From a bacterium (lineage in GTDB: Bacteria > SZUA-79 > Acidulodesulfobacterales > Acidulodesulfobacteraceae): a DNA stretch of 64,000 nt. The stretch lies in contig JAJYQS010000055.1 in NCBI GenBank assembly GCA_021794475.1, positions 1-64,000 on the forward strand, read 5' to 3'. The translations under genes were made by a program, and so were the position numbers. This document shows positions 50,612 through 61,007 of the stretch, one piece after another; positions within the stretch are counted from its first letter, which is position 1; every line of letters starts with the position of its first letter. Under the pieces are notes generated by a model that was given only the letters and a program-made list of their open reading frames with translations, searched no databases and was not told where the DNA came from.

Positions 50612-51046
50612 TTATTCTGTAATAATTATTTCCTCAATAATCGGCTTGTTAATTTTATCGGGCATCAAATAATTTTTAATATCGGCGACATCTTCTAATT
50701 TGTTGCCTTTTATGGAAACGATTGTATAAGAATAATATGGCCATGAAGCGCCGATATCGGTATTTGAAGGAACAGCCGGATGATTAGGGTGGGAATGGTA
50801 GAACCCTATTACTTCTATATTTTCTTTTCTTGAAAGCTTATCTATTTCAAGCATATCCTTAGGTTCAATTTCAAATGCATCCCATGCTATTTTTCTGTAT
50901 TTATTCTGGGCCGGAAATATTTTTGTTATTTTCTTATTATCGCCGTCAAAGATGCCAAGCATAGCTCCGCATGCTTCATAAGGAAAAATTTCGGCAACAT
51001 GTTTTTTAATTATAGTTAAATTTTCTTTAGAAATTATTAGCGGCAT
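50612..51046 (-). CDS. JAMM/MPN+ metalloprotease (M67 family)
   Basis: A 144-residue zinc metalloprotease of the Mec+/Mov34 type. Glu24 lies in YEACGAMLG, the zinc ligands are H84 and H86 in YHSHPNHPAVPSNTDIGAS and Asp97 follows. In bacteria such enzymes release residues from the C-terminus of ThiS-like sulfur-carrier proteins. That fits the ThiS/MoaD-type genes 5-8 kb away in this window, although it is not in the same operon. It follows the ArsR gene by 108 bases on the same strand. Confidence 0.9.
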   Translation of the reverse strand: MPLIISKENLTIIKKHVAEIFPYEACGAMLGIFDGDNKKITKIFPAQNKYRKIAWDAFEIEPKDMLEIDKLSRKENIEVIGFYHSHPNHPAVPSNTDIGASWPYYSYTIVSIKGNKLEDVADIKNYLMPDKINKPIIEEIIITE

Positions 51047-53471: not shown

Positions 53472-53631
53472 TATAACTGAAAAGTTTGCAGCAATAGAAG
53501 AGGACATAATTTGGCAATTAGCGCTGTTCACACAGTTTTTTCGATAAAATAAAAGGCAAATGTCTTTAAAATTTAATCGGCGCTAAAAGATAAAATAAAT
53601 CAGTCCTCTTTTATTGCTGAATATAGTTATA
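53472..53631. repeat. Long inverted repeat between the NifX-like and cofH genes
   Basis: CAGCAATAGAAGAGGAC at 53489-53505 is matched by GTCCTCTTTTATTGCTG at 53603-53619 (16 of 17 positions). TATAACT continues the left arm (about 53471-53477) and AGTTATA the right arm (about 53625-53631). Inside, GCGCT-containing blocks near 53520 and 53580 also face each other. The right arm includes the last codons of cofH. It may be a bidirectional 3' structure or a small mobile relic. Confidence 0.5.
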
Positions 53632-54717
53632 AAGCGTATCTCTTCTGACCGGATTTTTTCCGGCTGATTTTATAAGAGATATTATATCTTTTTCACCGAG
53701 ATACTCGCCAAAATTGCCTCCGGCGCTTTTTGTAATATTTTCTTCCATGAGTGTTCCGCCGAAATCGTTAATTCCGCATGAAAGGGATTGAACAGCAAGT
53801 TCCGTGCCTATTTTAGGCCAACTTGTCTGAATATTTTTAAAATTGTTTAGATATAATCTTAATATAGCGTAAAATTTTAGTATTTTTTGACTGTCAGCAC
53901 TGATACCTGTTTTAATCTGATGTTTTAATGAAGTTTTTGATGCAATAAAAGGCAAAGCAATAAATTCTGTAAAACCGTTTGTTGAATCCTGAATTTTTCT
54001 TATTAAATCAAGATGGTAAACTATATCGGCGTTTGACTCAATGTGTCCGAGCAGAATAGTAGCCGAAGATTTTATATCCATTTTATGCGCAGTTTTAATG
54101 ATTTCAGTCCACTGGAGCGCGGATATCTTGTCTTTGCATATTGCTTTTCTTGTTTCAGGCGCTAAGATTTCGGCAGCTGTTCCAGGCATTGAATTAAGTC
54201 CGTTTTCTTTTAAAATTTCAAAAATTTTCTCAAACGAGAAGCCTGTTTTAGCAGAAAGTTCAAAAATCTCCTGCGGAGAGAATGCGTGTATATGCAGTTC
54301 CGGAAAAGCGGCTCTTATAGATTTAATTAAATTAAAATAAAAATCAGGATTAAAATCCGGATTTATGCCTCCGGTTACGCAAACTTCATTTATACCGATA
54401 TTATAACCTTCATTTATTTTTTCAATAATTTTGTCGATTGTTAAAACAAATGAGTCCTTTGAATTGGCAGTTCTTTTATATCCGCAAAATTTGCAATTCA
54501 GATAACAGATATTTGTAAAATTAATATTTCTATTGACCACATATGAAACGTTATCGCCGTTGACAGATTTATTAATATAAGCTGCGTATTGTATAATTTC
54601 GTTAAAATTTTCGCTATCATCAAGCAGATTTAGAAGCTCATCGCTGTTTATCCGTTCTGATTTATTAATCTTATCAAATATATTGCCTAAATTGTGATGT
54701 TTGTTTATGTTTATCAT
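53611..54717 (-). CDS. cofH: CofH-family radical SAM protein
   Basis: A 368-residue radical SAM enzyme most like CofH, which joins tyrosine and 5-amino-6-ribitylaminouracil on the way to F0/F420. YVVNRNINFTNICYLNCKFC carries the cluster motif CxxxCxxC, followed by GYKR. EVCVTGGINPDF, HIHAFSPQEI, NSMPGTAAEILAPETRKAIC, LLGHIESNADIVYHLDL and FGGTLMEENITKSAG match CofH better than ThiH or MqnC. It lies 44 bases past thiG on the same strand, where thiH is often found. It might make F420 precursor, or give dehydroglycine from tyrosine for ThiG. Confidence 0.85.
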   Translation of the reverse strand: MININKHHNLGNIFDKINKSERINSDELLNLLDDSENFNEIIQYAAYINKSVNGDNVSYVVNRNINFTNICYLNCKFCGYKRTANSKDSFVLTIDKIIEKINEGYNIGINEVCVTGGINPDFNPDFYFNLIKSIRAAFPELHIHAFSPQEIFELSAKTGFSFEKIFEILKENGLNSMPGTAAEILAPETRKAICKDKISALQWTEIIKTAHKMDIKSSATILLGHIESNADIVYHLDLIRKIQDSTNGFTEFIALPFIASKTSLKHQIKTGISADSQKILKFYAILRLYLNNFKNIQTSWPKIGTELAVQSLSCGINDFGGTLMEENITKSAGGNFGEYLGEKDIISLIKSAGKNPVRRDTLYNYIQQ

Positions 54718-55626: not shown

Positions 55627-55827
55627 TTATCCGCCCGGTGCGATTGTCACGAGGTCTAATCTATCTTTATCTTTCAGGATAAATTCTGCATATTTAGCCT
55701 TTGGTACGATTTCTTTATTAACTGCTGCCGCCGTACTTTCAATATTGAGATTAAGACTGTCTATGAGCTGAGTTATAGTCAAGTTTTCATTTAAATTGAT
55801 TTCTTTATCGTTTACGTAAATGAGCAT
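55627..55827 (-). CDS. thiS: Sulfur carrier protein ThiS
   Basis: A 66-residue ubiquitin-fold sulfur carrier ending in the required Gly-Gly (VTIAPGG), so no processing is needed before activation. The start LIYVNDKEINLNENLTITQL and the middle AAAVNKEIVPKAKYAE are typical. The MoeB/ThiF-like enzyme further upstream in the same block could be its activator. Confidence 0.95.
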   Translation of the reverse strand: MLIYVNDKEINLNENLTITQLIDSLNLNIESTAAAVNKEIVPKAKYAEFILKDKDRLDLVTIAPGG

Positions 55828-56008: not shown

Positions 56009-56180
56009 TTTTATATTTACTTAATAAATTTAAATTAATTCAGAACCTGTCTATTGTCTGCCGTATTTCTTAAGAGTTATATTATACCGATTAAATTGGT
56101 TTATATAAATAAGAATAATACAACATAATGTAATTTAAAAATTGTTCTGAACTATTGTTATGTAAATAAGTTTATAAGCT

Positions 56181-56310
56181 TTCCTTCGCTGGTATTGTCC
56201 ATATCAGGTTCAGAGGGTTCCGGATATAATAAATAAATCCAATCTCAGCCTTTTATGTATATTTTCAACCGTGCAATCGAAACTGCACAGTCAAAACAGG
56301 CACCCCTAGC
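56181..56310 (-). promoter_or_regulatory. TPP riboswitch (THI element) upstream of thiS-thiG
   Basis: On the minus strand the conserved parts occur in order: GGGGTGCC near 56306, GGCTGAGATTGG near 56250, then ACCCTCTGAACCTGATATGG and ACAATACCAGCGAAGG near 56183. The P3 arm is extended (AGTTTCGATTGCACGG region). It is followed 175 bases later by an intrinsic terminator and then thiS. It is a clear member of the class. Confidence 0.95.
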
Positions 56311-56393
56311 ATTTATATCTTAAATATATATTATCATATTGTTATTAGTTAGTCAACAACGTGCAACGAGCAATTAATTTTATCATTCTAAAA

Positions 56394-57350
56394 TTAAAAC
56401 ATATCTTTAAAGACGATTGTTGATAAATATCTGGAACCCGTATCCGGCAAAACCGTAACATAGTTTCCCTTATATTTTTGAGAAAGTTTATATATCCCGT
56501 ATAAATTAGCGCCTGAAGAAAAACCGCATAAAAGCCCTTCTTTTTTTATAAGCTTTTTCAGCATTAAATAACTGCCTTCCGTGTCAACTTTCACGTAATC
56601 ATCTATAATATTATTATGGTCAAAACCTTTAAAATTAAATGAATAGTTATATTTCCAGCCCTCTATGCCATGCATCGGACTGTCAGGTATCACCGCTATA
56701 ATTTTAATATTTTTGTTATATTCTTTTAATCTTTTTCCGGTGCCGAGAATTGTTCCGCCTGTTCCTATGCCGGTCACAAAATAATCAATATTGCCGCCTG
56801 TTTGTTCAATAATTTCTGCTGCCGTAGTTTCATAATGCGATATGGCATTATTCGGGTTGTTATATTGGTCAGGCATATAATAGATATCAGTTCCGCCGGT
56901 TTTATATTCTTCAATGGATTTTTTTATAGCTCCGTCATGACTTTCTTCGGCAGGGGTCAGAATTAATTCTGCACCGTAAAGTTTTATAAGCTGTTTACGT
57001 TCTTCGCTCATATTAGAAGGGGCATATATCTTTACTTTAAGGTTTAAAAATGAACCTATCATAGCATAGGAAATACCGGTATTGCCGGAAGAAGAATCGA
57101 TTATAGTCATATTTTGTTTAAGAATATTTTTATTTATTGCATCCTTGAGCATATAAAATGCAGGTCTGTCCTTAATTGAACCGCCGGGATTCTGAGATTC
57201 CGTTTTAGCGTAAACTTTAGCACCGTCAGAACTGTTAAATAAATTATCCAATAAACAAATATTCGTTCTGCCTATAGAATTAAATATATTTAAACTTAAA
57301 AAATTTAATTTATATTTTAAATCGTTTTCAGTTATTTCTTCTTTTGCCAT
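56394..57350 (-). CDS. Cysteine-synthase-family protein (CysK/CysM type)
   Basis: A 318-residue fold-type II PLP enzyme that would join sulfide or a protein thiocarboxylate to an activated serine. The PLP lysine is in ESQNPGGSIKDRPAFYML, the substrate loop in SSSGNTGISYAM and the phosphate-binding loop in TGIGTGGTILGTGKRL. IPDSPMHGIEGWKYN is the later conserved segment. It follows the TusA-like gene by ten bases, so it belongs to the SAM-riboswitch operon. A thiocarboxylate sulfur source like that of mycobacterial CysM is possible but not shown. Confidence 0.9.
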   Translation of the reverse strand: MAKEEITENDLKYKLNFLSLNIFNSIGRTNICLLDNLFNSSDGAKVYAKTESQNPGGSIKDRPAFYMLKDAINKNILKQNMTIIDSSSGNTGISYAMIGSFLNLKVKIYAPSNMSEERKQLIKLYGAELILTPAEESHDGAIKKSIEEYKTGGTDIYYMPDQYNNPNNAISHYETTAAEIIEQTGGNIDYFVTGIGTGGTILGTGKRLKEYNKNIKIIAVIPDSPMHGIEGWKYNYSFNFKGFDHNNIIDDYVKVDTEGSYLMLKKLIKKEGLLCGFSSGANLYGIYKLSQKYKGNYVTVLPDTGSRYLSTIVFKDMF

Positions 57351-57360
57351 TATGATTTGT

Positions 57361-57606
57361 TTATTTTTTTAAACCGTTTTTTTCGACTATTATTTCATAA
57401 TCGGTATCGTTTATTTTATTTATGGAAACCACCTTGTGTCCTTGTTCCTCCATAGAGCGGGGAACATTTCTTATGGCGGGCTCATAATCTACTATTATTC
57501 TCAGTATTTCGCCTTGATTTATTTTTTCTAATGCAAGTTTGGATCTGACAAAAGTAAAAGGGCATATTTCGCCTTTAATGTCTAATTCGCTATTGTATTC
57601 AGCCAT
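57361..57606 (-). CDS. TusA-family sulfurtransferase
   Basis: An 81-residue TusA-like protein. The sulfur-carrying cysteine is in IKGEICPFTFVRSKLALEKI, and LRIIVDYEPAIRNVPRSMEE and VSINKINDTDYEIIVEKN follow as usual. It probably passes persulfide sulfur within this operon, for example to the MoeB-activated carrier. It is 111 bases past moeB. Confidence 0.9.
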   Translation of the reverse strand: MAEYNSELDIKGEICPFTFVRSKLALEKINQGEILRIIVDYEPAIRNVPRSMEEQGHKVVSINKINDTDYEIIVEKNGLKK

Positions 57607-57717: not shown

Positions 57718-58521
57718 TCAAGCTTTAAATTCGCATAATTCTTCATATTCTATTAGATCAACCACTGTCGGATTTTCCCCGCAAAGCGGGCAAGTCTTGT
57801 CTTGTCTCAGTTTCATTTCTGTAAATTTCATATCTAAGGCATCATATATTAATAATCTGCCGTTTAATGTCGTTCCAATACCCAGTATTATTTTTATGGC
57901 TTCGTTTGCCTGTATTGCTCCGATGACGCCAGATAAGACGCCCAAAACGCCGGCTTCTTGGCAGCTTGGAACTAATCCTGCCGGCGGAGGCGAAGGGAAT
58001 AAACACCTGTAGCAAGGACCATTGTCGGGCAGAAACACTGTCGCCTGTCCGTCAAATCTGAAAATAGAACCGTAAACAAGGGGTTTTCCGTAAAAATGAC
58101 ATGCATCGTTAATCAGATACCGTGTAGGAAAATTATCGGTAGCATCTATTATTACGTCATAATCTTTAATAAGTTCCTGTATATTGTCGGAAGATATTTT
58201 TTCTTTATATGTTATAACCTTGACATCTGGGGTAATCCTTTCAATAGAATCTTTTGCCGAGTCGACTTTATATCTTCCTACGTCTTTATTGCCGTGCCAT
58301 ATCTGTCTTTGCAGGTTTGAAAGGTCAACAGTGTCAAAATCGGCTATGCCGAGTGTCCCTATTCCTGCAGCTCCGAGATATAAACCGCACGGAGCTCCTA
58401 AACCGCCTGCGCCTATCAAAAGGACTTTAGAAGATAATAATTTTTCCTGACCTTCTCCGCCGACTTCGGGCAATATTATATGCCTAGCGTATCTTTTAAT
58501 CTGTTCTTCCGTAAAATCCAA
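57718..58521 (-). CDS. MoeB/ThiF-family adenylyltransferase
   Basis: A 267-residue E1-like enzyme that adenylates the C-terminal Gly of a ubiquitin-fold sulfur carrier. RYARHIILPEVGGEGQEKLL begins the protein, VLLIGAGGLGAPCGLYLGAA binds ATP and DLSNLQRQIWH is the conserved R/Q block. ATDNFPTRYLINDAC follows. Zinc cysteines are in CYRCLFPSPP and CPLCGENP, with a further Cys in VPSCQEAGVLG. It sits between the MoaD-NIL fusion and the TusA-like gene, so it probably serves that fusion and perhaps ThiS. Confidence 0.93.
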   Translation of the reverse strand: MDFTEEQIKRYARHIILPEVGGEGQEKLLSSKVLLIGAGGLGAPCGLYLGAAGIGTLGIADFDTVDLSNLQRQIWHGNKDVGRYKVDSAKDSIERITPDVKVITYKEKISSDNIQELIKDYDVIIDATDNFPTRYLINDACHFYGKPLVYGSIFRFDGQATVFLPDNGPCYRCLFPSPPPAGLVPSCQEAGVLGVLSGVIGAIQANEAIKIILGIGTTLNGRLLIYDALDMKFTEMKLRQDKTCPLCGENPTVVDLIEYEELCEFKA

Positions 58522-58562: not shown

Positions 58563-59078
58563 TTATTCAATGATATCCAATACGATAGGCTCAACGCTCA
58601 CGCCTTTAGATTCTAAGAATTTTATTGCTTTTTCTATATCTGCCTGTTCACCTTCGACTTCGAGGGCAATTATGCCTATATCGTTAGAAATACTGGCACT
58701 TCTAATATTAGTTATTACATTGTAATTTTTACCTATTAAATATATCAGCGGGTCTTTAATTACTTCCTGAGGATAATTTAAATAAAATTTTTTTTTTTCG
58801 GAAGTTCCTCCCGCAATTGCAGGTATTATAGAAATTGTATCTCCGTCTTTTACCTTTGAATCGTTATTGTCTATAAATCTTATATCTTCGTCGTTTAAAT
58901 AAACATTAACGAATCTTCTGACCTGGTCATTTTTTTCGCATATCCGTTCTTTTATTCCTGGATAAGCCTTTTCAAGGTCGTTAATAATTTCTAAAATATT
59001 AGTTCCCGCAGCATCAACTTCCGATTTTCCGCCGGTTAAGGTTCTTAAAGGCGTCGGTATTCTAACAATTATAGCCAT
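58563..59078 (-). CDS. MoaD/ThiS-type sulfur carrier fused to a NIL domain
   Basis: A 171-residue fusion. Residues 1-91 are a MoaD-like ubiquitin fold (IIVRIPTPLRTLTGGKSEVD; ISIIPAIAGG), ending in Gly90-Gly91. From about residue 97 follows a NIL domain (KFYLNYPQEVIKDPLIYLIG; SNDIGIIALEVEGEQADI), a ligand-binding fold also seen beside methionine transport and in proteins of methanogen homocysteine synthesis. Because the Gly-Gly is internal, a protease would have to cut behind it before thiocarboxylate formation; alternatively the carrier works in another way. It lies between thrC and moeB. Confidence 0.9.
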   Translation of the reverse strand: MAIIVRIPTPLRTLTGGKSEVDAAGTNILEIINDLEKAYPGIKERICEKNDQVRRFVNVYLNDEDIRFIDNNDSKVKDGDTISIIPAIAGGTSEKKKFYLNYPQEVIKDPLIYLIGKNYNVITNIRSASISNDIGIIALEVEGEQADIEKAIKFLESKGVSVEPIVLDIIE

Positions 59079-59134: not shown

Positions 59135-60388
59135 TCATTTTTTGTTTTTTTCTTTCTCCCGTACTTTTTTTAGAACGTCTTCAAATTCTTCCAAATTAGG
59201 TTTTATAACAGGCGCGTCATCTAATCTGCCGTTAAGCGCCTCTAATGTCTTTAAACCGTTACCTGTAATTGCAAGTACGGTTGTTTCATTTTTATTGATA
59301 TACCCCTTTTCAATAAGCTTTTTAGCAACTGCTACCGTAACGCCCCCGGCCGTTTCTGTAAATATGCCCTCGGTAGATGCCAGCAGTTTCATGCCCTCCA
59401 CTATTTCATCGTCTGTAGCATCTTCACCGAATCCGCCGCTTTTATGCATTAAGTCTGCAGCATAATAACCGTCGGCAGGATTGCCTATTGCAAGAGATTT
59501 TGCAATGGTATCCGGTGTTTTTACAGGTTTAATAAATTCCCTTTTCTCTTTTACCGTTGAAGTAATCGGGTTACATCCGGTAGCCTGTGCTCCGAAAATT
59601 TTAGTATTATGCTTTTCTATTAATCCGCAGTATTCAAATTCTTCAATTGATTTTCCGACTTTTGTAATGAGCGAACCTCCAGCCATTGGAACAACAACGT
59701 TATCCGGAGCTTTAAAACCCAATTGTTCAAGCATTTCAAAAGTAAGAGTTTTGGAACCTTCGGCATAGTAAGGTCTTAAGTTTATATTTACAAATGCCCA
59801 GTTATGCTTGCCTGCAATTTCAGTGCACAGTCTATTCACTTTATCGTAACTCCCTTCAATTTTGACTAAATTAGTGCCGTATATTAACGTTCCGAGAACC
59901 TTGCCGGTTTCTAAATTTGAAGGAATAAACACAAAACATTCGAAACCGGAAGCGGCGGAACATGCGGCAGTCGCATTTGCAAGATTTCCGGTTGAGGCGC
60001 ACGCAATTACCTTAAAACCAAATTCTTTTGCTTTGGCTATAGCAACGGAAACAACTCTATCTTTAAAAGAAAGGGTGGGAAAGTTGACTGCATCATTTTT
60101 TATGTATAAATGTTTAATCCCTAAAACTTTGGCAAGATTATCCGCCTTAACTAAAGGGGTAAATCCCACATCTTTGCCTATTTCTATATCGCCTTTAATG
60201 GGAAGCAATTCTCTGTATCTCCACATATTCGGCTGCCTTGACTTAATTTTCTCGACGCTTATATTTTTTTTGATTTTATCATAATCGTAATCCACCTCTA
60301 ATGGACCAAAGCAATAATCGCAGACATAAAGAGCGCTATCAGGATATTCCTTGCCGCATTCCCTGCATTTTAATCCTTTTACAAACAT
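59135..60388 (-). CDS. thrC: Threonine-synthase-like PLP enzyme under SAM-I control
   Basis: A 417-residue fold-type II PLP enzyme. It starts with a zinc ribbon (KCRECGKEYP, YVCDYCFGPLEVDYDY), then PTLSFKDRVVSVAIAKAKEF with the PLP lysine and ACASTGNLANATAACSAASG with the phosphate loop. QATGCNPI and TAGGVTVAVAKKL follow, then TVLAITGNGLKT. It is normally annotated as threonine synthase, acting on O-phosphohomoserine. But it is the first gene behind a SAM-I riboswitch and is followed by a sulfur-carrier set, so a role as homocysteine-forming enzyme, using a sulfur carrier in place of water, is possible. That is inference. Confidence 0.87.
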   Translation of the reverse strand: MFVKGLKCRECGKEYPDSALYVCDYCFGPLEVDYDYDKIKKNISVEKIKSRQPNMWRYRELLPIKGDIEIGKDVGFTPLVKADNLAKVLGIKHLYIKNDAVNFPTLSFKDRVVSVAIAKAKEFGFKVIACASTGNLANATAACSAASGFECFVFIPSNLETGKVLGTLIYGTNLVKIEGSYDKVNRLCTEIAGKHNWAFVNINLRPYYAEGSKTLTFEMLEQLGFKAPDNVVVPMAGGSLITKVGKSIEEFEYCGLIEKHNTKIFGAQATGCNPITSTVKEKREFIKPVKTPDTIAKSLAIGNPADGYYAADLMHKSGGFGEDATDDEIVEGMKLLASTEGIFTETAGGVTVAVAKKLIEKGYINKNETTVLAITGNGLKTLEALNGRLDDAPVIKPNLEEFEDVLKKVREKEKNKK

Positions 60389-60772: not shown

Positions 60773-61007
60773 AAAAGAGCAATAATATTAATTATTAAAT
60801 TAAAATAATAAAATAATTAACTGACTATAGTAAACTATATATCGTTTTAGAATTATATATTATAATTTAATTTATGTCAAATTATTTATTCGCTTCCGTC
60901 GGCAAGAGCCGAATCTTTTTTGTTGTTGCCTAAAAATGATGTCTGCCCCTGATAAATATAATAAAAAAATAGTGTTTATCCCTAATAAAAATTGCCGGTC
61001 GAAAAGG
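60773..61007. other. Spacer between the SAM riboswitch and ybjQ
   Basis: AT-rich and without an ORF. It must hold the promoter of the riboswitch operon on the minus strand. A small TCGGC/GCCGA hairpin at 60899-60912 with ATCTTTTTT after it looks like a terminator on the plus strand, but no plus-strand gene precedes it. Confidence 0.4.

Follow-up and report, generated by a model that had tools for sequence, protein, structure and literature searches.

Small sulfur carrier proteins work only when the active tail is free. In Wolinella, Krishnamoorthy and Begley reportedly described in 2011 a system (HcyS/HcyF/HcyD/MetY) in which a metalloprotease is said to trim the residue(s) past the carrier Gly and also to free homocysteine. 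This route is further said to use MetY (PF01053) with O-acetylhomoserine. Carriers with an internal Gly-Gly are also on record, as MoaX of M. tuberculosis is a MoaD fused via an internal Gly-Gly and cleavage is needed (PMC4326299), and a JAMM protease cuts the Deinococcus MoaD-MoaE protein after its internal Gly-Gly (PMC8832034).

A homocysteine route that uses the MetM and MetO proteins was reported in Streptomyces in 2024 (Hasebe et al., as cited in PMC12172450). According to PMC12172450, O-phosphohomoserine is the substrate and a SAM riboswitch is located upstream in S. albulus, whereas it is absent in Microcystis, hence the riboswitch is not universal. The NIL domain has been described in methionine uptake, as the C2 domain of MetN, and in methionine synthesis, in the NIL/ferredoxin protein of the DUF39 route (PMC5764234, PMC8416018).

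The locus examined here lies in a window of 64,000 nucleotides, which is the whole stretch of DNA that was analysed. It resembles the MetM/MetO system, as described in PMC12172450, in that a thrC-like gene and a sulfur carrier gene are neighbours and are preceded by a SAM riboswitch. It differs in that the carrier is fused to a NIL domain and the operon is shared with moeB, tusA and cysM, and in sister genera also with a gene for a JAMM protease. From the gene context and the description of MetM/MetO, the fusion is most readily interpreted as a MetO-type carrier that carries NIL.

The fusion gene and its operon

The fusion gene (coordinates 58563 to 59078, minus strand) encodes a MetO/CysO-like carrier joined to a NIL domain in a single protein of 171 aa. 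Pfam placed a ThiS domain at residues 5–91 (E 3e-16) and a NIL domain at residues 100–163 (E 3e-12), both above the gathering score. The codons for Gly90-Gly91 (58806 to 58811, minus strand) are followed in the encoded chain by 80 residues, which are the linker and NIL domain (residues 92–171; 58566 to 58805, minus strand), and there is no free C-terminal Gly-Gly before any cut. Both the coordinates and the Pfam matches agree with the first-pass annotation, which had described a MoaD/ThiS-NIL protein with Gly90-Gly91 buried and about 80 residues behind it. The carrier half is a beta-grasp domain terminating in Gly-Gly, as in ThiS/MoaD carriers, and was matched by Foldseek to CysO (4n6e_B, 3dwg_C), the closest relative among solved structures, while the NIL half was matched to the C2 domain of MetN. 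An AlphaFold model of the fusion has two folded domains, and residues 88–92 have pLDDT values below 50.

Of 30 genomes searched from the family of Candidatus Acididesulfobacter and its relatives, to which the window belongs, 28 had full-length fusions with the same layout, as did seven genomes from five other families, indicating that the open reading frame is neither a chance read-through nor an assembly error. Parsimony requires about 5–6 changes in the history of the fusion, though well-supported branches force only one. A literature search for MoaD with a NIL domain gave no match.

The operon is also encoded on the minus strand, in the order thrC-like, moaD-NIL, moeB, tusA and cysM. The thrC-like gene (59135 to 60388), here called thrC2, encodes a MetM-like protein of 417 aa whose N-terminal region carries a four-Cys motif, and the fusion gene is followed by genes for a MoeB/ThiF-type E1 enzyme (57718 to 58521), a TusA-type sulfurtransferase (57361 to 57606) and a CysM/CysK-like PLP enzyme (56394 to 57350). 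A SAM riboswitch (RF00162; 60652 to 60749, minus strand) was detected upstream of the operon with a score of 56.1 bits (gathering score 44.4). Upstream of this is a candidate sigma-70-like promoter (TTGACA-17-TATAAT; 60852 to 60880, minus strand), predicted from its 12/12 match to the consensus. The four-Cys motif of ThrC2 is invariant, and an invariant Cys272 is missing from the aligned canonical ThrC (2zsj).

Every fusion found, across six families, retains the Gly-Gly, though the linker that follows differs between them in both sequence and length. Loss of the Gly-Gly in related fusions, which had been put forward as grounds for doubting that the pair is used, was seen in none of the sequences aligned. 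If the NIL domain stayed attached and the Gly-Gly went unused, the protein could be a methionine sensor or a scaffold, and the solved MoaD-related chain from Thermus (1v8c), a full-length fusion with an internal Gly-Gly, would fit this. However, conservation of the Gly-Gly despite a drifting linker and retention of the E1 enzyme in the operon argue against it, as does a search of the genome in which no second carrier of this type was found for MoeB and ThrC2, and a permanently joined protein of this kind is very improbable.

The genome of the window includes its own ThiS, and a MoaD encoded beside MoaE, so that neither thiamine nor Moco synthesis requires the fusion carrier, and its use for either is unlikely. 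A TPP riboswitch is present ahead of thiS and thiG in the window (56164 to 56317 and 55627 to 55827), and downstream of thiS/thiG a gene for a CofH-like radical SAM protein (53611 to 54717) is found in place of a clear thiH.

Split forms, tails and the JAMM protease

In many other lineages, the chain of the carrier stops at the Gly-Gly or shortly past it, and NIL is encoded by the next gene, which at times overlaps the carrier stop codon. In a comparison of 32 unfused carriers, the Gly-Gly was the exact C-terminus of 9, and the other 23 carry between 1 and 24 extra residues. A tail behind the Gly-Gly is common in these carriers, and the fused NIL domain is the extreme form of it. The buried Gly-Gly had been considered unusual in the first-pass annotation, but it is less so given these tails and the frequent occurrence of NIL as a separate gene. 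One of the tails (L096; 8006 to 8365), of 24 residues, itself terminates in AVAGG, and in two genomes a direct MoaD-MoeB fusion likewise has its Gly-Gly inside the chain (L090, 3297 to 4454; L091, 7323 to 8429).

As tails are common and split forms exist, a precursor that is cut is favoured, for which MoaX and the Deinococcus MoaD-MoaE protein are precedents. The location of NIL in a separate neighbouring gene in many genomes indicates that carrier and NIL are evidently able to work apart, and comparison of the split with the fused forms offers a natural way to test whether a free Gly-Gly is needed. A free carrier could also arise with no protease, by slippage at the run of 11 A bases that follows GGAGGA in the window. 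However, relatives break this run with AAG codons and do not keep the GGA codons, and slippage, which was rejected because the run is not conserved, is considered extremely improbable.

A JAMM metalloprotease is encoded at 50612 to 51046 (minus strand), identified from a match to the Prok-JAB profile (6.5e-18) and an intact HxHPx(6)SxxD motif (HSHPNHPAVPSNTD). In the genus to which the window belongs, this gene is about 5 kb from the operon, with the thiamine cluster and other genes in between. In sister genera it is the last gene in an unbroken operon of thrC2, moaD-NIL, moeB, tusA, cysM and JAMM, and in two other families it immediately precedes the fusion gene. These positions make the JAMM the right candidate for the cut, and give substance to an earlier proposal that it was a natural one. 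The JAMM gene was found in 34 of the 36 genomes that have the fusion. However, it is equally common in genomes that encode the two parts separately (outside the family, 36 of 38 genomes with thrC2 have it), and a role for it as a fusion-specific partner was rejected. Co-occurrence alone therefore does not show that the JAMM cuts the fusion, and its conserved task may be only the release of the product amino acid.

The NIL domain may have a part in the timing of the cut. An Asn at position 124 is invariant among 22 aligned NIL domains, and lines up with E. coli MetN Asn295, which we take to be a residue that contacts methionine. Methionine bound to NIL could then change the rate at which the fusion is cut, and so gate sulfur flow. 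This would suit the regulatory fold that NIL shares with MetN, the aligned Asn and the place of the operon in a methionine circuit with a SAM riboswitch, as well as the binding of methionine to the C2 domain of E. coli MetN, which inhibits transport (PMC8416018). However, in many lineages NIL is a protein of its own and the neighbouring carrier has a Gly-Gly end that is almost free, suggesting that control of release by tethering is not the conserved task, and an effect of methionine on cutting is unlikely. That the ligand state of NIL sets when the JAMM frees the carrier, with methionine gating its own sulfur supply and one carrier shared between cysteine and homocysteine synthesis, is rather improbable. 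NIL has now been seen in three methionine settings, namely MetN, the DUF39 route and the thrC2/carrier operon.

Methionine context of the operon

The fusion and the JAMM candidate were correctly recognised in the first-pass annotation, which overlooked the SAM riboswitch and with it the methionine setting. A SAM riboswitch was also found before thrC2 at six loci from the same family (L004, L006, L007, L020, L024 and L103) and in six unrelated lineages, which are five other families of the genome set and Nonomuraea. Most other lineages scanned had no SAM riboswitch at the gathering score. The thrC-like gene in the window is a second copy, as the true thrC is located elsewhere, beside genes for homoserine dehydrogenase and a proposed homoserine kinase, and almost all thrC2 genomes tested have another thrC. 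Scans of four thrC loci of the type that includes homoserine dehydrogenase and the proposed homoserine kinase detected no SAM riboswitch.

Neither a PF01053 enzyme (MetB, MetC, MetY or MetZ) nor HcyBio (PF01837, DUF39) was found in any of 30 genomes from the same family. Outside the family, both were absent from 24 of 38 genomes with thrC2 compared with 42 of 217 without it (Fisher p 1.3e-7, a test that counts genomes as independent, which they are not), and a PF01053 enzyme is retained in ten of the 38. The family genomes that were tested encode a MetH-type protein (PF02574).

The operon, the second thrC, the SAM riboswitch and the absence of the homocysteine synthases searched for agree with a route of the MetM/MetO type. 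The carrier could instead serve cysteine synthesis only, as in the CysO/CysM/Mec system, with the thrC-like gene encoding an ordinary threonine synthase. CysO is the nearest solved relative of the carrier half, and the CysM-like gene and, in sister genera, the JAMM gene belong to the operon. However, the SAM riboswitch upstream, the true thrC in the threonine operon and the lack of any known homocysteine synthase among those looked for in the genome are not explained by this role, and it is not a likely one. In Nonomuraea gerenzanensis (L127, L128) the SAM riboswitch, thrC2 and a carrier gene are at one locus and JAMM, carrier and CysM genes are at another, so that the two routes are separate there.

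The fusion is probably a precursor, cut after Gly91 and most likely by the JAMM, from which the carrier of a thiocarboxylate route to homocysteine and methionine is released. In such a route the MetO-like carrier, of the CysO type, would be synthesised with NIL behind the Gly-Gly, and a protease, for which the JAMM is the best candidate, would cut after Gly91 to generate a free Gly-Gly end. MoeB would adenylate the freed end, sulfur would be passed onto the carrier from TusA or another donor, and the MetM-like ThrC2 would use the thiocarboxylate and O-phosphohomoserine to form homocysteine. The JAMM may additionally detach the amino acid from the carrier, and CysM may be supplied by this carrier too. 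Once freed, the NIL domain would act as in genomes that encode NIL separately, probably by binding methionine or a partner.

This route suggests how acid-loving bacteria that lack the homocysteine synthases searched for may make methionine. According to a 2018 paper, Aquifex has none of the known homocysteine routes (PMC5764234). In an Aquificaceae genome, thrC2 was found beside a carrier gene, with a separate NIL gene elsewhere (L109, 4017 to 4936; L028, 522 to 764); the layout thus extends to this family, which bears on the homocysteine route in Aquifex.

Relationship to described carrier systems

ThrC2 of Nonomuraea, which is accompanied by a SAM riboswitch and a carrier and was the nearest proxy for Streptomyces MetM, is 51% identical to ThrC2 from the window. 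Like the CysO/CysM/Mec system of Mycobacterium, the window includes a CysO-like carrier, a CysM-like enzyme and, about 5 kb away, a JAMM, but the ThrC-like enzyme, the SAM riboswitch and NIL are additional. The window also differs from the Wolinella HcyS route, as its genome lacks a PF01053 enzyme.

In MoaX and the Deinococcus MoaD-MoaE protein, MoaD is joined to MoaE and molybdopterin is made, whereas here the partner is NIL. The Thermus 1v8c chain shares with the fusion a MoaD domain, an internal Gly-Gly and a C-terminal domain, but this last domain has no clear match to NIL by sequence. In MetN and in the DUF39 route, NIL is not fused to a sulfur carrier, and HcyBio (DUF39) is absent from the genome of the window.
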